A stretch of DNA of 64,000 nucleotides from Methanohalophilus levihalophilus. GTDB lineage: Archaea > Halobacteriota > Methanosarcinia > Methanosarcinales > Methanosarcinaceae. Position numbers and translations under genes: made by a program. The notes beneath the pieces are model-generated. The model was not told where the DNA came from, made no database searches, and was given only the letters and a program-made list of their open reading frames with translations. The stretch spans positions 558,001-622,000 of the forward strand of contig NZ_JAGGLK010000002.1 of NCBI RefSeq assembly GCF_017874375.1, written 5' to 3'. Shown here in pieces: positions 17,272-38,214 of the stretch (the first letter of the stretch is position 1; every line of letters begins with the position of its first letter).

Positions 17272-18501
17272 TTGAGTCAACCTTGTGTTAATATCGGCAT
17301 GGTAGGTCATGTCGACCACGGAAAAACCACTCTGGTAAGTGCATTGTCCGGCGTCTGGACAGATAAGCACAGTGAAGAGTTGAAACGAGGTATATCCATC
17401 CGCCTCGGATATGCAGATACTACTTTCAGGAAATGTCCATCTTGCGCTGAACCCCAGTGTTATACCGTAGCAAAGAAGTGTGATGAATGTGGTACAAAAA
17501 CAGAAGAAGTAAGGACTATTTCATTTGTAGATGCTCCCGGCCACGAGACTTTGATGGCTACGATGCTTTCAGGAGCGGCTATTATGGATGGAGCAATTCT
17601 CGTCATTGCTGCAAATGAGGATTGTCCGCAACCTCAGACCAAGGAACACTTGATGGCTCTGGATATCATCGGAATTGAGAATCTTATTATTGTGCAGAAC
17701 AAGATCGATCTTGTTTCAAAGGAAAAGATCATTGAGAATTATCACCAAATCAAGGAGTTTGTTAAAGGAACGGTCGCTGAAAACGCTCCTATAATTCCGG
17801 TTTCTGCCCAGCAGAATATCAATATAGATGTCCTGATAAAAGCAATGGAAGAGTACATCCCGGCTCCTTCACACAAGCTTGACAAAGACGCAAAATTGCT
17901 CATTGCCAGATCTTTTGACATAAACAAGCCCGGAACTTCCATTAAGAAAATTGCCGGTGGTGTACTTGGCGGAACACTTACAGAAGGTATCCTGCGTGAG
18001 GGTGACGAACTGGAAATCCGACCAGGTATGAAAGTGGAAAGTGAGAATGCTGTTCGCTGGGATCCTATTTATACAAAAATAGAACGTATTGTCGCAGGAG
18101 ATGAAACAGTGGAGGAAGCAACTCCCGGTGGTCTTCTTGCAGTAGGTACCAGTCTCGATCCAAACCTTACAAAGAGCGATTCATTAACCGGACAGGTTGC
18201 AGGTGCTCCGGGCACATTGCCACCGACTTTTGATATATTCACTCTTCAGCTTCACCTGCTTGAGCGTGTTGTTGGTATTTCCGATGATGATGAAGAAATC
18301 GTGAAAATCAAGACAAGTGAACCTCTTATGCTCAATGTGGGCACTGCAACGACCGTGGGAGTTGTAACAAGTGCAAGAGGGGAAGTTGCGGAGATTAAAC
18401 TGAAACGTCCGGTATGTGCTGAAATTGGTTCTACTGTTGCAATTAGCCGCCGTGTTGGCTCTCGCTGGAGACTAATAGGCGTCGGAGTAATTGAGAATTG
18501 A
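17272..18501 (+). CDS. eif2g: Translation initiation factor aIF2 subunit gamma
   Basis: 409 residues, TTG start with GGGAGGAAA ribosome site. GTPase motifs are G1 '[12 protein letters not shown]', G3 'DAPGHE' and G4 'NKID'. The knuckle typical of a/eIF2-gamma is present as '[10 protein letters not shown]' and 'CDECG' (zinc-binding cysteines, about residues 63-80), followed by two beta-barrel domains. It carries initiator Met-tRNA to the small ribosomal subunit as part of the aIF2 heterotrimer. The stop overlaps the start of the PIN gene, an arrangement common in Euryarchaeota. Confidence 0.95.
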
Positions 18502-18866
18502 AAGTAATCATTGACACCAATGGATTGATGATCCCGGTGCAATTCGGGGTCGATATTTTCACGGAGCTCCAGCGAATGGGTTACAATGAATTCATTGTAC
18601 CTTCGGCAGTTGTTGATGAGCTCAAAGTGTTAATCAAGCGCTATCGCGGAGAGCAAAAAGCTGCATCTAAAGTTGCTCTTTCTCTTTGCCAGCGTTGTGA
18701 CATAATGGAAAAGTCGGGTATTGCCGACGATGTTATTGTGGATATGGCATCTGAATTGGAATTGCCGGTTCTTACAAATGACATTGGTTTACAAAAGAGA
18801 TTGGAAGAGCACAAAATACCGATTATTCGGTTGCGGCAGAAAAACAGGCTTGAACAATCCTGGTAG
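18498..18866 (+). CDS. PIN-domain nuclease-like protein
   Basis: 122 residues, TTG start overlapping the aIF2-gamma stop. PIN acidic residues are visible: Asp6 in 'VIIDTNGLM', Glu in '[10 protein letters not shown]', Asp residues in '[11 protein letters not shown]' and Asp in '[12 protein letters not shown]'. Stand-alone PIN proteins next to aIF2-gamma are widespread in Euryarchaeota and may act in rRNA or mRNA processing. No antitoxin gene is adjacent, so a VapC toxin role is unlikely. It ends with TAG (18864-18866), the only gene in the window that appears to use amber as its stop. Readthrough would add 16 residues before a TGA. Confidence 0.8.
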
Positions 18867-18883
18867 ACGTGCAATACCAAAAT

Positions 18884-18893
18884 GATATATAAG
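18884..18893 (+). promoter_or_regulatory. TATA box before rpoE1
   Basis: GATATATAAG at 18884-18893, some 46 bases before the rpoE1 ATG, in the 72-base gap after the PIN gene. The GGAGATG ribosome site lies between the predicted start of transcription and the ATG. Confidence 0.45.
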
Positions 18894-18938
18894 AGAGCGT
18901 TATCTGTGGTAGTCTGAGATCATTGTGGAGATGTAGTC

Positions 18939-25072: not shown

Positions 25073-26476
25073 ATGGCAACAGAATACATGCTCAGGATGG
25101 GTGACGGTGAAAAGATCTTCATGACAAAGGAAGACATCCTCGCTGACATCCAGGAAGGTAGCGCTGACGCAGCAGATCTCGGAGACGTTGCAGCACTTAC
25201 CGATGACGAAATGGACAAGATGCTGTCCATCATTATCAACCCTAACAGGATTGTAGGTGTTGAACCCGGAATGGAAGTTCCAATGACCCACGACATTGGT
25301 TCCATCAGGATTGATGGTGACCAGGGTAACAGTGGTGTTGGTATCCCATCCAGCCGTCTTGTCGGCTGTCAGATGCACGAGAGAGCTTTTGGTGCAGACA
25401 CAATGGAACTTGGTCACATTGACTACAGTTACAAACCCGTCAAACCTGTTATTGCACAGGAACAGCAGACAATGGAAGTTTGCCAGATGAACATGGTAAT
25501 TCCTCTGCTCTATGGTGCTATGCCAAACCTTGGTCTTTATTATACTCCAGACGGTCCATTCACCAACCCAGGCGACCTCATGAAAGCATTCAAAATAGCA
25601 GAAGCCCGTGAATCCATCGAGAAAGCAGGCGACCACGCAACCCGTGACATCACATGGGTAATGCAGCGTCTCCAGGCTGTTGGTTGTGACGGTGTCAACT
25701 TTGACACAATCGGCGCAGCTGGTGATGGTGACTTCTACGCATCCCTCTACGCAATCAAGGCACTCAGGGAAGAATTCCCTGGTATCTACATTGAAGCCGG
25801 TATGGCTGGTGAATGTACCCTTGGTATGCACGGAGAACTCGAATACGAAGGAAAGATCCTTGCAGGTCTCTGGCCACATGAGCAGGTCCCACTCGCAGAA
25901 GAAGCTGGTGCAAACGTGTTCGGTCCAGTATGTAACACCAACACAAGCAAATCCGCTGCCTGGAACCTTGCACGTGCGGTAACTTTCACCAAAGCCTGTG
26001 TTGAGACAGCCAACATTCCATGTCATGTTGACATGGGTATGGGTGTCGGTGGTATCCCAATGTTTGAGACTCCACCAATCGATGCAGTAACCCGTGCAAG
26101 CAAGGCAATGGTCGAGATTGCCGGCGTTGACGGTATATAGATCGGAGTCGGCGACCCTGTAGGTATGCCGATTGCACACATCATGGCATCCGGTCTTACC
26201 GGTATGCGCGCAGCTGGTGACCTTGTTGCCAGGATGCAGTTCGACAGCAGCATGGAACTTGCCGATGCAAAAGACTATGTTGCCAAGAAGATCGGTGTTG
26301 ACAAAGCAGACCTTGCCAACGAGCACGTCATGAGGGAAGTTCGTGAAGAACTCGACATTGGTATTATTACCTCTGTCCCAGGCTGTGCAAAGGGTATCGC
26401 TGCCAAGATGAACATCGAGAAAGTTCTTGACATCGAAATCAACAGCTGCCAGAAATTCAGGGAAACTACTGAATAA
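25073..26476 (+). CDS. mtbB: Dimethylamine methyltransferase MtbB, with pyrrolysine at an in-frame TAG
   Basis: 467 residues when the amber codon TAG at 26138-26140 is read as pyrrolysine, residue 356, the position known for Pyl in MtbB. The flanking residues are 'IAGVDGI' and '[14 protein letters not shown]'; the frame continues without any other stop to TAA 26474-26476. A stop-obeying gene finder would split this gene into two. MtbB moves a methyl group from dimethylamine to MtbC, with Pyl activating the amine. ATG 25073 follows AGGTGATTTG, 11 bases after mtbC. Codon use is strongly biased toward a few codons, as expected for a highly expressed methanogenesis gene. Confidence 0.97.
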
Positions 26477-29813: not shown

Positions 29814-31664
29814 ATGCCAGTGCCAATTGCAGAAGAACTTGCAAAAAAACAGCAAGCGATTAGTGTCGCAGAATTTTTTGAGAAGAACAGGCAGATTCTG
29901 GGTTTTGACTCTGCCCCACGAAGTCTTATTACAACGGTAAAGGAAGCCGTTGACAACTCACTTGATGCGTGTGAGGAAGCCAGCATCTTGCCGGATATTA
30001 TGCTGGAGGTAAGACGTTCCGGAAAGAGCGGTGTTTCCATTGTGATTGAAGACAATGGACCGGGAATTGTCAGGGAACAAATCCCAAATGTGTTTGCAAG
30101 ATTGCTCTACGGTTCACGTTTCCATGCTCTTAAGCAAAGCCGTGGACAGCAGGGTATCGGTATATCTGCCGCTGTCCTATATTCCCAGTTGACATCAGGT
30201 CATCCTACTAAAATCATTTCCAAAATTAGTCCCACTTCGCCTGCTCACTACTATGAACTAATGGTCAACACAAAAACAAACGAACCTGAAATCCTGCATG
30301 ATGATATAATAGAATGGGACAGGCCACACGGAACACGTGTTGAACTTGAAATGGAAGCTGCTTATGTGAAAGGCAGACGTCAGTCTGTAGAGGAGTACCT
30401 GAAGGCTACTGCGATTGTCAATCCCCATGCCCGCATCACTCTTATTGATCCTGATGGTGTTAAAACAACTTTTGAAAGGGTAACAGATCGCATACCTGAA
30501 CCTGCAAAGGATATTCTCCCCCATCCTCATGGCATTGAACTGGGTACGCTCATGAAAATGCTCAGGTATACCGACAGGCAAAAGCTGGCTCCATTTTTAC
30601 GCTATTCTTTCTCTAAAATAGGATTGCAGACCGCCGAGGAAATTTGTCTTGCATCCGGACTTGATCCCGACACTCCACCCTCCGAATTGGGGCGTGAAGA
30701 GGCCCGGAAATTGCTCGATGCTTTCCAGAAAGTTAAGATCATGTCTCCCCCAACGGATTGCCTGTCTCCGATTAGTGAAGATCTTGTGTACAAGGGTCTT
30801 AACAAAGAGTATAAGGTTGATTTCATTGCAACTGCTACCAGAACTCCTTCGGTATTCTCAGGAAATCCGTTCGTTGTAGAAGTCGGTCTTGCTTACGGTG
30901 GCGACCTTCCAAAGGAAGAACGTGTCGGCATAATGCGTTTTGCAAACAAAGTTCCTCTCCTGTATCAGCAGGGAGGTTGTGTCACCACCCATGCAGTTGA
31001 GTCCATCAAATGGAAACAATATGGTCTTAACCAGCCAGGTGGCGGTTTGCCAGTAGCTCCGGTTGTCCTTCTCGTACATGTTGCTTCTACTAATGTTCCG
31101 TTTACTTCTGAGTCCAAGGATGCAATTGCAGATATTCCGGAAATCCAGAATGAAGTGGAACTTGCTCTCAAGGAAGTGGGAAGGAAACTCAACAAATTCC
31201 TCAAAAGACAGGGAAACCTGAAAAAAAGGCGTGAGAAGGAAGTTATCATCACAAAAGTCCTTCCGAAAATGGCAGAGAAACTCGCAGAAACCCTTGACAA
31301 GGAAGTTCCCGATATTAATCCTGTAGTTGCCCGTGTTATGGGTAATCTTTTGGTTCATCGGCAGGCAAGTCAGAATGGTAATGGTGGGATGGATGTTTCA
31401 CTTAAAGTTACCAATTATACCAGTAAAAAACTCGATTTCAGGTTGCATGAAATTCTGCCGGAACAGGTAACTGCTTCACCAGAAGCAAAGATTGTGAGTA
31501 TGGGTTCAGATAATGATCATATCTGGAAAATGTCACTTCCTGTGGGCGATACGAGAGTTATTACTTATTCAACAAGCAGTGATTTCCGCATTCCTGATTC
31601 AATTGTTGAAGGAGTTGAGGAAGACATAGTTACAGGTGCAAAAGCAATCATGGGGGTTGTATGA
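29814..31664 (+). CDS. top6B: DNA topoisomerase VI subunit B
   Basis: 616 residues. GHKL ATPase motifs: '[20 protein letters not shown]' (Bergerat N box), '[20 protein letters not shown]' (G1 box), and '[20 protein letters not shown]' (G2/ATP lid). The H2TH and transducer domains follow, with the switch lysine region '[10 protein letters not shown]'. Top6B uses ATP to open and close the gate of the type IIB topoisomerase that relaxes and decatenates DNA. Coupled to top6A by a four-base overlap. Confidence 0.96.
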
Positions 31665-32770
31665 TGGCAGACAAAAATGAACACCGAAAAGAACATGACA
31701 GGCTTGCTGAAGACAGACTTATGGGGCTTGCCGGAAGGCTTTACTCCCAGTTTGTAGACGGGCATGTGCCTTCAGTAAACATGCCAACGCGTACTAAAAA
31801 CAATCTTGAGTATAGTGAAGAGAGTGATGTCTGGGTTTACGGTGACAGGGAAAGCGAGAGAAGTGCCAAGACTGTCAAAGGCGCCTTCCAGCTATTGAAG
31901 ACTTCACATGTTGTTGATTTCCTTGTGAAAAATCACCTTGCAAGCAACCGCGGATCGACTTTGAGGGAGCTGTATTACATCTCCGAAAACTGGGGTATTG
32001 GCAAGTTCAAGGAACAGCCTGAAAGTGACCGTCTCATCGAGGATCTTGAAGTAATAACAAGTTTGCAGAGAGAATATTTCCACATGCGTCCTGAGGAAGA
32101 TGGCGCAACGATGTTTGGTCCTATAAGAATTCAGGAAGAAACCAAACGTGGAAACCGTATCATCCACTGTCAGGAAGATGTAGGGGAAAGCGGATACCAG
32201 ATTCCCTTTAACGTGGAAAACATTGATTTCATCGACCATGACGCAAAGTTTATAATCGCAATCGAGACTGGTGGTATGTATGCCCGTTTAATCGAGAACG
32301 GTTTTGACGAGGAATACAATGCTATTCTTGTTCACCTCAAGGGGCAGCCCGCCCGCTCAACCCGAAGGCTCATCAAGAGGATGAATGAGGAACTGGGCAT
32401 TCCTGTTGTAGTGTTTACTGATGGTGATCCCTGGTCCTATCGTATTTACGCATCTGTTGCATACGGTGCGATAAAAACGGCCCACCTTTCCGAATTCATG
32501 GCAACTCCTGCTGCAAAGTTCATAGGAGTGCAACCTTCGGATATTGTGGAATACGAACTTTCCACCGATAAACTCACGGATAAGGATGTGGATGCGCTGA
32601 GAAGTGAGTTGACAGATCCCCGTTTTGATACTGATTACTGGAAGGATCAGATTAAACTCCAGCTTGAAATAAAGAAAAAGGCAGAACAGCAGGCCTTTGC
32701 TGGTAAGGGTCTTGATTTTGTAACCAAGACATACCTGCCCGACAGGCTTTCGGACATGGGAGTGATCTGA
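31661..32770 (+). CDS. top6A: DNA topoisomerase VI subunit A
   Basis: 369 residues, start overlapping the top6B stop. Spo11-related: the catalytic tyrosine lies in '[14 protein letters not shown]', and the Toprim acidic residues in '[18 protein letters not shown]' and '[20 protein letters not shown]'. It cuts both strands of DNA, with Top6B as ATPase partner. Length and motif order are standard. Confidence 0.96.
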
Positions 32771-33021: not shown

Positions 33022-33247
33022 TGTTCTCACCTCTTTGTTGGTTTTCTAGGTATTAATTGTTTTCCGGGGGTGCATTGTTTTATGTTTGTTTTGCTATGTA
33101 GCAATTACTGAAAATGGATTCATGACAATTATTTCTACATTGGATTGTGTGGGATGGATTATTCACAGATTTCATATTAAAAAGATAAGATAACATATTT
33201 TTTATAGTATAATTCATTATTTCTATCCGTACAAAAAATGATTTATT
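33022..33247. other. AT-rich intergenic region before the beta-helix gene
   Basis: 226 AT-rich bases. A TATA-like TTTTTTATAGTATAA lies near 33198-33212 and probably drives the beta-helix gene. No ribosome site, hairpin or repeat stands out. Confidence 0.4.
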
Positions 33248-36200
33248 GTGTTAGGATCAAAACACAAAATTTGTGTGGTAGGTGGTACTATCAAACTCAT
33301 ACATTTTATTAAATTATTTAAAGGGGAAAAAGGGAAAAGATCTGCTTCTTCTCCAATTGTTACCCGAATTCTTGGAATAGTAGTTATTTTGCTTCTACTT
33401 ACAGGTTCTTCTGCAGCAACGGAGACCATTAATGTGGACGATTCTGGTGGAGCGGATCACACAACAATTCAGGCTGCAATCAACGCTGCTGCTACAGGGG
33501 ACACAATCCTTGTGTATCCGGGTACATACACTGAAAATGTCGTTGTAAATAAGACGGTAAACCTTACTTCAACAAGTGGAGCTTCAGTCACACATGTAGT
33601 TGCATCGTCTACAGAAGATGATGTTTTCACTGTTTATGCTGATGAGGTAACAATCTGTGGTTTTAATGTTAGCGGAGCTACTGACTATCACAAAGCAGGC
33701 ATTCATCTGGATTCTTCAATCGGCAGCAAGCTGGCCAATAACACAGCATCAAACAATGGTTACGGCATCTAGCTCTATTTTTCCAGCAATAACACACTGA
33801 CCAACAACACAGCATCAAACAACATTCTTGGCATCTATCTGGACTCCAGCCGCGACAACAATCTAATCGACAACACGGCAAACAATAATAATGGATACGG
33901 CATTTTTCTGCGTCTTTCCAGTCACAATGCGCTGGATGGAAACACGGTGAACAATAACGATGGTTTCGGCATCCTTCTGGTGGATTTTATCAGCAACAAC
34001 ACCCTGAAAAATAACACGGTGAATTACAATGATGTCGGCATCTATCTGTGGGGTGCCTACAGCATCAACCCCTACAAGGTGTACAACGATAACCACACGT
34101 TGTACAACAACACTGTGAACTACAATGAAAAAGATGGCATTCGTCTGTCCAGATCCAGCTACAATGATCTGAAAGGTAACACGGTGAATTACAATGGATA
34201 CAATGGCATATGGCTGGATGGATCCTACAAAAATACATTTACCAGCAACACTGTGAACTACAATGAAGACGACGGCATCTCTCTGAACGATTCCACCAAC
34301 AATACATTTATTGGCAACACGGCAGAAGATAATGGTTACGGCATAGGGCTGCTTTCTTCTAGAAACAATCTCCTCTATAACAACATTTTCAACAACTCTA
34401 ACAACTTCATTTTTTCAGGAACAAATACCGGTAACCAATGGAACCTCGCAAAGACTGTAGGTAAGAACATAGCGGGTGGGGCATATCTGGGAGGCAATTA
34501 CTGGCTTAAACCCGATGGTACCGGTTTTAGCCAGATTAACGATACGGATGTGAATGTTGACGGTTTCTGTGATTCAGCCTATTATCTTGATGTAAATAAT
34601 ACCGACCAGCTGCCTCTGACAAAGGGACCAGTGCTCCTCCTGAATGTAACTGATGCTCCGGGGTCCAACAATTACACAACCATCCAAGGCGCAATTAACA
34701 ATGCTTCTGCGGGGGTTACTATTCTCGTGTATCCAGGTACATACACTGAAAATGTCGTTGTAAACAAGACGGTAAATCTTACATCAACTGGTGGAGCATC
34801 CGTCACTCATGTCATTGCTGCAGATGTAAATGATCATGTGTTCAATGTCTCAAATGTAGATGATGTTACCATAAGCGGTTTCAATGTCAGCGGGGCTTCA
34901 GGTTCATGGGCTTCAGGCATCCTTCTGTACGAGTCAAGTTACAACACGCTGGGTGGCAACATGGCAGAAGATAATTTCATCGGCATCTATTTGGTTTCTT
35001 CCACCGACAACACGATGGATGGCAGCACGGCAAACAATAATAGCTACGGCATTCGTCTGTATAAGTCCAGTGACAGTGAGCTGACCGACAATACAGCGAA
35101 CTACAATAAATATGACGGTATCTGGCTGGAAGATTCCATTTACAACAAGCTAACCGAAAACATAGCGAGCTACAATAAATATGACGGCATCTGGCTGGAG
35201 GATTCCAGCAATAGCAACATATTGGCCAACAACACGGCGAACTACAATAAAGAAAACGGAATCCTTCTGTGGAGTTTCTGCAACAACAACACGCTGACCG
35301 GCAACACGGCAGAAAACAATACTCAATACGGTATTGGCCTGCTATCTTCTAGCAACAATCTCATCTATAACAACTTTTTTAACAATACAAACAACACCGC
35401 TTTTGAAGGAACCAATATCGGGAATCAATGGAATATCACAAAGACCGCAGGCACGAACATCGCAGGAGGATCTCACCTCGGAGGCAATTACTGGCTTAAA
35501 CCTGATGGTACGGGTTTTAGTCAGGTCAATACTACGGATGCGAATGGTGACGGCATTTGTGACTTAAACTATACTCTTTCTGGAACTAACATCGACTATT
35601 TGCCTCTAGTACAACCTGTTAGTTCTTCAGATTCGCCAGCTTCAAGCAGTGCAAAGTCCGGCGGTAGTGGCGGAGGAGGGGGCGGTAACACTGGTGAATC
35701 CTTTGAGAATATTCTGGCGAAAGATGCTCAATTATCAATTGTAGTTGCTGACGGTGTTTCTCTCTATGAATTTAAGGAAGAAATGTGCAACATCTCCTAT
35801 GTTCAGTTCAGGGGTGTTTCAAATACGGGGCAGATCAGTACAATTATTGAGGTTCTCAAAAATACTTCCGCACTTGTGGATTCACCAGTTCCGGGCAATG
35901 TATACCAGAATCTGAACATCTGGGTTGGCAATGCAGCCTTTGGTGACGACAAGATCAAAGATGCAGTTATCGGTTTCAGGGTTAGCAAGGAATGGCTACT
36001 GGAAAACGGCATTGAGGCATCAGCCATTGCACTTTATCGTTACAATGATGGGCAGTGGAATGAACTTTCCACCATTCAAATAGATGAGAATGACAAATAT
36101 ATTTACTTTGAAGCGAAGACTCCGGGATTTTCACCATTTGCAATATCGATTTCAATGAGTAGAGTTACTGTTGGGGAGGATGCGCTTCCTTCATCCGTAT

Positions 36201-36337
36201 TTAGTGAGAAACCTGTGGAAGATCTCAGTTCCGCAGATGATCCATTACCTGACTCGAAAGCAACTCCCGGATTTAGCCTCTTGCTTTCGGCAATTGTGCT
36301 TATCTCATTGTTTGCTATGAAAAAGAGAAAACACTAA
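33248..36337 (+). CDS. Parallel beta-helix surface protein with PGF-CTERM anchor and one in-frame TAG
   Basis: One continuous reading frame of 1029 residues except for TAG at 33770-33772 (residue 175); both halves are in the same frame with no other stop. The N-terminal part has a signal-like segment ('ILGIVVILLLLTGSSAATE'), then 'TINVDDSGGADHTTIQAAIN' and beta-helix (NosD/PbH1) repeats of the form G-I-x-L-x-x-S-x-x-N-x-L-x-x-N-T. A second copy of the opening module begins near 34640. After a Gly/Ser linker comes a PGF-pre-PGF domain (about 815-975) and a C-terminal 'TPGFSLLLSAIVLISLFAMK' tail of PGF-CTERM type for archaeosortase anchoring. The TAG replaces a codon that is TAT in sister repeats. 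It may be read as pyrrolysine or be a nonsense mutation. The GTG start is uncertain. Confidence 0.7.
33494..34830 (+). repeat. Two diverged copies of the beta-helix opening module
   Basis: About 33494-33610 and 34700-34815 encode near-identical stretches ('LVYPGTYTENVVVNKTVNLT' in both), and the DNA between matching positions is also very similar. The large protein therefore arose by internal duplication of a module and its repeats. Confidence 0.65.
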
Positions 36338-36480
36338 ATTATCCAATTAATTTTGTCATGGAAAAGCAAAATTGATGTTCAAGCAAGCCACAATCCAACT
36401 ATATTTTGGACAACATATTGCGTAATACAAGACTTTCAGTTCAGAGGAGTATCAAAAAAGAAAAAAGGAAAGAAAAGGAA

Positions 36481-37116
36481 TCACTCAAAAGTAACGTGCA
36501 TCAAATCATCCATCAAGTCGGGATGAACTGCAACTACTTCCTCTGTTGGATTTCCATTTTCAATATTTTCTTCGCCTCTTGCAGGGTCCGGCTGTCCACA
36601 GTCGAATCCACACATGAGACCTTCGTTTTCTTCGGTACCTGCATCATAGATTACTGCATTGTGCATGCCGGATGCGGCAACACTGTCAACCAGTGCATAT
36701 CCGTCATTGGTTCCCACTGCCATTCCGATTACGCTTACCAGTGATTCTTCACCGGGTGCAATTTCGACAGTTGTGAATTCTCCCGGAAGGATTGGTGCAT
36801 CAAATGTGACGACTTCTTCGACTCCATCCATTCCTTCAAGGTACTCTGCAAGTTGGGTATTGCTGCCGTATTCTGCCAGAGGCTCAAGGGCTTCTGGTGC
36901 CATTTCTCCTTCGAAGTCGAGGATTCCTTCAGTAGTGTGGACCACAACAAGTCCTGGTGAGATTGGTTGTGCATCGTGCACATTCTCAATTGTAACCTGA
37001 ACTGTCATAGGTTCTGCTGGCTCTTCAACTTCCGGTTCGGTTTCAACGCATCCGGAAAAGGCGGTTACCACCAGTGTTACCACTGCTAAAACTAATAGTA
37101 GGTTTAATTTTTTCAT
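36481..37116 (-). CDS. Spondin-domain lipoprotein
   Basis: About 211 residues from ATG 37116, which has GGGG six bases upstream; ATG 37128 would add four. Lipoprotein signal with lipobox 'VVTAFSGC' (Cys about 23), then an acidic linker 'ETEPEVEEPAEP'. The body matches the spondin N-terminal domain as found in archaea and bacteria: 'VTIENVHDAQPISPGLVVVH', 'TLEGMDGVEE'-like region, 'SVIGMAVGTNDGYALVDSVA' and 'YDAGTEENEG'. It is anchored outside the membrane by lipid or its signal. It is convergent with the beta-helix surface-protein gene. Function unknown; perhaps adhesion or matrix contact. Confidence 0.78.
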   Translation of the reverse strand: MKKLNLLLVLAVVTLVVTAFSGCVETEPEVEEPAEPMTVQVTIENVHDAQPISPGLVVVHTTEGILDFEGEMAPEALEPLAEYGSNTQLAEYLEGMDGVEEVVTFDAPILPGEFTTVEIAPGEESLVSVIGMAVGTNDGYALVDSVAASGMHNAVIYDAGTEENEGLMCGFDCGQPDPARGEENIENGNPTEEVVAVHPDLMDDLMHVTFE

Positions 37117-37227
37117 ATTATACCCCATAATTAATGGTGTTAGATTGCTACATAAATGTTTCTCATTTTATTTTTACAGTAAATTTAATATCATCCACCC
37201 CCTCATTACTGCAAAGGAGATTTGATA

Positions 37228-38214
37228 TTGACATTTGTTCTCGGGATTGAAGGAACTGCATGGAACTTAAGTGCTGCAGTTGTTGACGAAAATGACGTTA
37301 TTGATGAGGTAACTCATACATACAGGCCACCAACAGGTGGTATTCATCCACGGGAAGCTGCTCAACACCATGCACAATATGCGGGGCAGGTGATTCGAAA
37401 GCTGTTCGAGAACATTGCCGAAAAAGGTATTTCTTCTGAAGATCTCGATGCGATAGCCTTTTCTCGGGGTCCCGGGCTTGGAGCCTGCCTGAGAACCGTG
37501 GGAACCGCTGCAAGAGCGCTGTCGTTATCCCTTGACAAATCTCTTGTTGGTGTTAATCATTGCCTTGCTCATGTGGAAGTGGGAAGATGGAAAACTCCTG
37601 CTGAAGATCCGGTTGTTCTGTATGTCAGCGGAGGGAATTCACAGGTTCTGTCATATCGTAACGGCAAGTATCGCATCTTCGGGGAAACACTTGACATTGG
37701 AATCGGCAACGCTCTTGACAAATTTGCCCGCAATGCAGGTCTGTCCCATCCTGGAGGTCCGAAGGTTGAAGAATTTGCTACGGCAGCAGCATCTTATGTT
37801 CCTCTGCCCTATGTTGTAAAGGGTATGGACTTCTCATTTTCAGGTTTATCAACGGCTGCAACTGATGCACTTGTGCACTCATCAATTGAAGATGTATGCT
37901 ACTCATTTCAGGAAAACGCATTTGCAATGCTGGTGGAAGTTACAGAACGCGCTCTCGCACACACCGGTAAAAACGAGGTCTTGCTTGGAGGCGGCGTTGG
38001 TGCTAACAGCCGTCTGCGGGAGATGTTGAACATCATGTGCGAGGACAGGGGTGCTTCTTTCTATGTTCCGGAAAAACGTTTCATGGGAGACAATGGTTCC
38101 ATGATTGCATACCTTGGATTACTCATGTATAAATCAGGAACTACAATTGAAGTTGCAAATTCACATGTCGATCCTGATTTCAGGCCGGATTCCGTGGAGG
38201 TGACCTGGCTTTGA
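37228..38214 (+). CDS. kae1: tRNA N6-adenosine threonylcarbamoyltransferase Kae1
   Basis: About 328 residues from TTG 37228, seven bases after AAAGGAGA; TTG 37222 is too close to that site. ASKHA fold with metal-binding histidines in 'VNHCLAHVEVGRW', 'YVSGGNSQVLSYRNGKY', 'DFSFSGLSTAATDAL' and 'VLLGGGVGANSRLREML'. Catalyses t6A37 formation on ANN-decoding tRNAs within the KEOPS complex. The partner kinase Bud32 is encoded separately immediately downstream with a four-base overlap, not fused as in some methanogens. Confidence 0.95.
   Translation: MTFVLGIEGTAWNLSAAVVDENDVIDEVTHTYRPPTGGIHPREAAQHHAQYAGQVIRKLFENIAEKGISSEDLDAIAFSRGPGLGACLRTVGTAARALSLSLDKSLVGVNHCLAHVEVGRWKTPAEDPVVLYVSGGNSQVLSYRNGKYRIFGETLDIGIGNALDKFARNAGLSHPGGPKVEEFATAAASYVPLPYVVKGMDFSFSGLSTAATDALVHSSIEDVCYSFQENAFAMLVEVTERALAHTGKNEVLLGGGVGANSRLREMLNIMCEDRGASFYVPEKRFMGDNGSMIAYLGLLMYKSGTTIEVANSHVDPDFRPDSVEVTWL

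Follow-up and report, generated by a model that had tools for sequence, protein, structure and literature searches.

Essentially every UAG codon in the genome of Methanohalophilus levihalophilus is probably translated as pyrrolysine (Pyl), and this would include the UAG at codon 175 of a gene for a large beta-helix surface protein, which would then be made in full length. The gene is located in the window, i.e., the whole stretch of 64,000 nucleotides that was analyzed here. It contains the TAG together with intact domains downstream of it, and the genome (termed G000; 2.1 Mb in five contigs) encodes the Pyl machinery and has nearly lost TAG as a terminator, with coding extensions past the codon. 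Passive incorporation of Pyl at a tolerant site, without special Pyl chemistry, is the reading that we favour, and the TAG of the beta-helix gene looks like one ordinary instance of genome-wide reassignment, a side effect of a known code change.

The Beta-Helix Gene and Its In-Frame TAG

The gene for the NosD/parallel beta-helix surface protein is situated on the forward strand (33248..36337). When the in-frame TAG at 33770..33772 is translated as a residue, the frame comprises 1,029 amino acids, contains this single TAG and ends with a TAA stop codon. Translation thus bore out the statement of the initial annotation that the TAG is the sole interruption of a 1,029-codon frame, and its caution about the GTG start was equally justified, as the start is uncertain, with two in-frame candidates (GTG 33248 and GTG 33275) and a TGA upstream at 33239-33241. 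Under the standard code, translation would stop after 174 residues, which comprise the signal peptide and the start of the first helix only.

The predicted full-length protein has a recognizable domain order, all parts of which are encoded on the forward strand. A likely hydrophobic core of a signal peptide, ILGIVVILLLLTGSSAA, identified by eye, covers residues 42-58 (33371..33421) and is followed by two beta-helix domains with approximate limits, the first with ten GIxL coils, the second of which harbors the TAG (33428..34627), and the second domain with seven such coils (34637..35607). The adjoining PGF-pre-PGF domain (TIGR04213, E 7e-52) spans residues 817-967 (35696..36148), and the protein is completed by the C-terminal tail ATPGFSLLLSAIVLISLFAMKKRKH (36260..36334). 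The beta-helix assignment is well founded, with 316.6 bits for PF05048 (cut-off 23.6), 182.8 bits for PF13229 and 263.2 bits for TIGR03804, the repeat profile lying above its cut-off. The score for the NosD subfamily model TIGR04247 was 159 and below the cut-off of 300, and we therefore do not claim a function in copper maturation.

Past the TAG, the 854 sense codons retain coding character (score 137), and the chance that a frame of this length would remain free of TAA and TGA in noncoding sequence of the same genome is P ~4e-16. Continued coding, repeats and the PGF-pre-PGF domain had all been ascribed to the downstream part and were all recovered. The sorting tail that had also been proposed is present in its layout, which resembles PGF-CTERM and suggests a membrane tail: by eye, a PGF motif, a hydrophobic stretch and a basic end can be discerned. 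Membership is not claimed on this tail, which did not match the PGF-CTERM model and did not exceed the cut-off of any sorting model of NCBIfam, Heimdall-CTERM reaching 17.2 bits (cut-off 24).

TAG as a Terminator Across the Genome

Stop codon usage was studied in a sample of 42 stretches of the genome (~0.88 Mb) that consisted of the window, 40 sampled stretches and the pyl cluster. Genes were called in 462 kb and then in a further 400 kb (862 kb) with a simple codon model, so that the counts do not stem from a curated annotation. The 756 called genes end with TGA (371), TAA (371) or TAG (14), and the resulting share of 1.9% for TAG compares with 19.4% predicted by noncoding triplets (binomial P ~7e-51). 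Ten of the 14 TAG-ending frames extend for 48-854 codons with a coding score, while in the other four the extension amounts to 1-16 codons only. Coding extensions of at least 40 codons occur past TAG in 10 of 14 cases and past TAA or TGA in 82 of 742 (Fisher P 3e-7). Since TAG is rare as a terminator and most TAG-ending frames are still coding, readthrough with Pyl is the better-supported reading, and Pyl at residue 175, raised in the initial annotation as a possibility, can be put forward as a prediction from the sequence. Context mostly settles that TAG would serve as a sense codon nearly everywhere in this Methanohalophilus genome.

Four of the ten extended genes encode methylamine methyltransferases (two MtbB, one MttB and one MtmB). 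One of these, mtbB for dimethylamine methyltransferase (25073..26476, forward strand; TIGR02368), is located in the same window and served as a positive control; as had been noted before, it holds one classical in-frame TAG. Two of the remaining six specify NosD proteins; the others are genes for a histidine kinase, a SAM methyltransferase whose TAG, at residue 120, falls inside its domain (residues 44-138), a PEF-CTERM protein and an integrase-like protein that was named by eye and matched no family model. The impression that the beta-helix gene would be an isolated exception among methyltransferases had to be abandoned in view of these several non-methyltransferase genes. Scaling up from the sample, the genome may contain perhaps ~25 TAG-containing genes.

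TAG proved just as infrequent in the stretches sampled from a congener (G003) and from two other genera (G009 and G017). In the congener, TAGs are found within or between conserved domains of a GNAT acetyltransferase, Pol IV and a histidine kinase, and in G009 the same applies to a CcmF-like protein. The histidine kinases of M. levihalophilus (L121:6666-8300, reverse strand) and of the congener (L080:10506-12143, reverse strand) carry the TAG at residues 251 and 254, respectively, in both cases before the kinase domains. As a side observation, one of the four short extensions occurs in the window itself, where a gene for a PIN_9-domain protein (18498-18917, forward strand) ends with TAG and the next stop codon is 16 codons further on.

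Pyrrolysine Machinery and Release Factor

A complete pylTSBCD cassette is present in the genome, with pylT (anticodon CTA) adjoining pylS, pylB, pylC and pylD (stretch L102), and each of the eight Methanohalophilus genomes encodes PylS. Furthermore, Pyl has been found by mass spectrometry in MttB of Methanohalophilus portucalensis (PMC4928046). Both observations conflict with the statement in a review that Methanohalophilus is devoid of a Pyl system (PMC8211752).

According to our proposal, PylRS would charge tRNA-Pyl(CUA), which would read UAG 175 of the beta-helix mRNA and allow the ribosome to complete a secreted, membrane-anchored beta-helix protein of 1,029 residues. Because a search for a PYLIS-like RNA structure 3' of the TAG yielded none that is stable (z = +1.37), decoding would be passive and proceed without a cis signal. 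Presumably, the mRNA is translated, insertion of Pyl is efficient and the residue has no special function at this site.

The main rival is partial termination, the extent of which may vary with methylamine supply. Here, aRF1 and Pyl-tRNA would compete at the UAG, giving rise to a secreted, unanchored fragment of 174 residues besides the full-length protein, and methylamine supply together with pyl expression would determine the ratio of the two products. The genome still has a gene for a standard aRF1, so that termination can compete with Pyl insertion, and competition of this kind without a cis signal, which would agree with the lack of a stable structure after the TAG, has been described in reviews (PMC9499178; PMC8211752). 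The four extensions of 1-16 codons and pylB, a further gene with a TAG end, likewise indicate that UAG may still terminate sometimes. On the other hand, true TAG-ending genes are nearly absent, as would be expected if UAG rarely terminates efficiently, and we regard such ambiguous decoding at codon 175 as rather unlikely, ranking it behind regular decoding as Pyl. A duplicated or altered aRF1 was also considered as an explanation and rejected, as one full aRF1 and otherwise weaker partial hits were detected.

The end of pylB deserves mention in its own right. In M. levihalophilus (L102:5123-6298, reverse strand) as well as in the congeners (copies in L104-L111), i.e., in eight of eight Methanohalophilus genomes, the terminal TAG of pylB stands directly 5' of the pylC start (TAGAATG). 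Past this TAG, exactly 39 more codons follow up to a TAA, overlapping pylC. Conceivably, translation of pylB and pylC could be coupled in a Pyl-sensing manner.

The Coil Position Holding the TAG

The TAG occupies position X of a GI-X-L coil. Among the 16 GIxL coils other than the TAG coil, X is encoded by TAT in three, and the remaining codons are CAT, TTT, CTT, CGT, TGG, TCT, GGG or GGC, such that His, Tyr, Phe, Leu, Arg, Trp, Ser or Gly appear at this position. The earlier observation that sister repeats have TAT therefore applies to three coils, the other 13 carrying different codons. In related proteins Tyr and Phe prevail, and Asp, Cys, Lys and others are also found. The slot is hypervariable. 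Because I and L are invariant core positions of the coil, X should face outward according to the beta-helix pattern, which backs the previous placement of the TAG on an outward strand face of the helix; Pyl 175 would accordingly be exposed, and the codon may have arisen by a near-neutral point mutation.

Three further genes carry a TAG within a beta-helix domain. A second NosD-type gene of M. levihalophilus (L042:10297-11814, corresponding to G000:C2:260297-261814, reverse strand) has the TAG at residue 298 (GIOLRESRHN). Two beta-helix genes of G009, a member of another genus of the same family, are located at L140:3331-6447 (forward strand) and L095:10570-13791 (reverse strand), both with the TAG in the GI-[TAG] slot; the two coils read GIOTISSSTD and GIOLFSSTNN, the latter belonging to L140. 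All four in-frame TAGs found within beta-helix domains, from two genera, thus hit the same slot. The three additional genes had been retrieved via homology, stop scanning or HMM search and not by searching for the slot. In the four proteins, ~7% of the codons that are one step away from TAG fall into the slot, and three further slot hits by chance would have a probability of P ~3e-4, a value based on small numbers.

When 186 genomes of the order were searched for coil motifs with a TAG, only three coil-like cases emerged, two from M. levihalophilus and one from G009. In the corresponding control with TAA and TGA, none was found within the family in these 186 genomes, and a single coil-like match outside of it stems from another family, in a genome that is 63% complete. 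Nor did any in-frame TAA or TGA occur among the ~150 beta-helix repeats listed from 11 genomes. Three more matches to the motif with TAG were dropped on reading of the codons, as they had TAA or TGA in frame or lacked the coil pattern.

The recurrent coil slot is the sole unexpected element of the whole case. In the simplest reading, the GI-X slot tolerates a bulky basic or aromatic side chain. As all four beta-helix TAGs from two genera share the identical GI-[O] slot, one could also imagine that Pyl is deliberately placed on the outward side of surface beta-helices in methanogens, where its reactive imine could act in adhesion, in cross-linking or in the binding of amines at the cell surface; we consider such a purpose highly improbable.

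Genomic Context and Origin of the TAG

The beta-helix gene is flanked by conserved genes, topVIA for DNA topoisomerase VI subunit A on the left (31661..32770, forward strand) and kae1 on the right (37222..38214, forward strand). Between it and kae1 resides a convergent gene for a spondin-domain protein (36481..37128, reverse strand). In seven of seven congeners topVIA lies next to kae1, and no beta-helix gene separates the two; an orthologue at this locus was thus found in none of them, and the spondin-domain gene is likewise present in none of the seven. Judged by this synteny, the beta-helix and spondin genes (33248-37128) are a genome-specific insert. A scan of genome contigs for relatives of the beta-helix protein uncovered two distant ones only.

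An inserted gene of this kind could be dispensable, and its absence from all seven congeners would suit a recent nonsense mutation with loss of the product and a downstream frame that has not yet decayed, the more so as a single base change would convert TAT or TGG, both frequent in sister coils, into TAG. However, UAG is no ordinary stop in this genome, the 854 downstream codons are free of any other lesion, and random nonsense mutations would not favour a single slot in four of four beta-helix TAGs (~3e-4, given codon accessibility), all of which renders this explanation improbable. A sequencing or assembly error hiding a sense codon such as TAT would concern a single base, but many TAG genes of the genome, including the second NosD gene with its TAG in the same slot, exhibit a like pattern, so that no error is needed and one is very improbable. 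Decoding of UAG 175 as Pyl is retained as the preferred interpretation.

Comparison With Known Pyrrolysine Systems

An archaeal 'Pyl code', in which UAG means pyrrolysine genome-wide in methylotrophic methanogens, has reportedly been described by Kivenson et al. in Science in 2025. The genome studied here resembles it in possessing the Pyl cassette, in having almost lost TAG as a terminator and in carrying TAG in many unrelated genes. Nothing fundamental sets it apart; it adds the example of a surface beta-helix and stop usage counts, obtained from a sample, for Methanohalophilus. If the beta-helix protein is translated as predicted, its Pyl would be surface-exposed and non-catalytic, and the case would illustrate the spread of a reassigned codon, through drift, to sites that tolerate it. 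Standard annotation truncates TAG-containing genes such as this one.

With MtmB, MtbB and MttB, four genes for which are present in the sample, the beta-helix protein would share decoding by tRNA-Pyl and PylRS. In the methyltransferases, however, Pyl is catalytic and conserved, whereas the beta-helix site is hypervariable, apparently unconserved and part of a repeat that does not look enzymatic. In-frame TAGs outside of methylamine enzymes are known from Methanosarcina, where a TetR regulator, transposases and Thg1 are concerned (PMC1914089; PMC3639795; PMC8211752); compared with these, the beta-helix product would be a secreted, anchored surface protein. The methods of two of these studies (PMC1914089; PMC3639795) call for conservation of the TAG region among other interrupted ORFs and would miss the beta-helix TAG gene. 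Its closest counterparts in architecture are NosD/beta-helix PGF-CTERM surface proteins of the Methanosarcinaceae, which have the same domains, repeats and tail layout but differ in that nearly all of them carry a sense codon at the slot.
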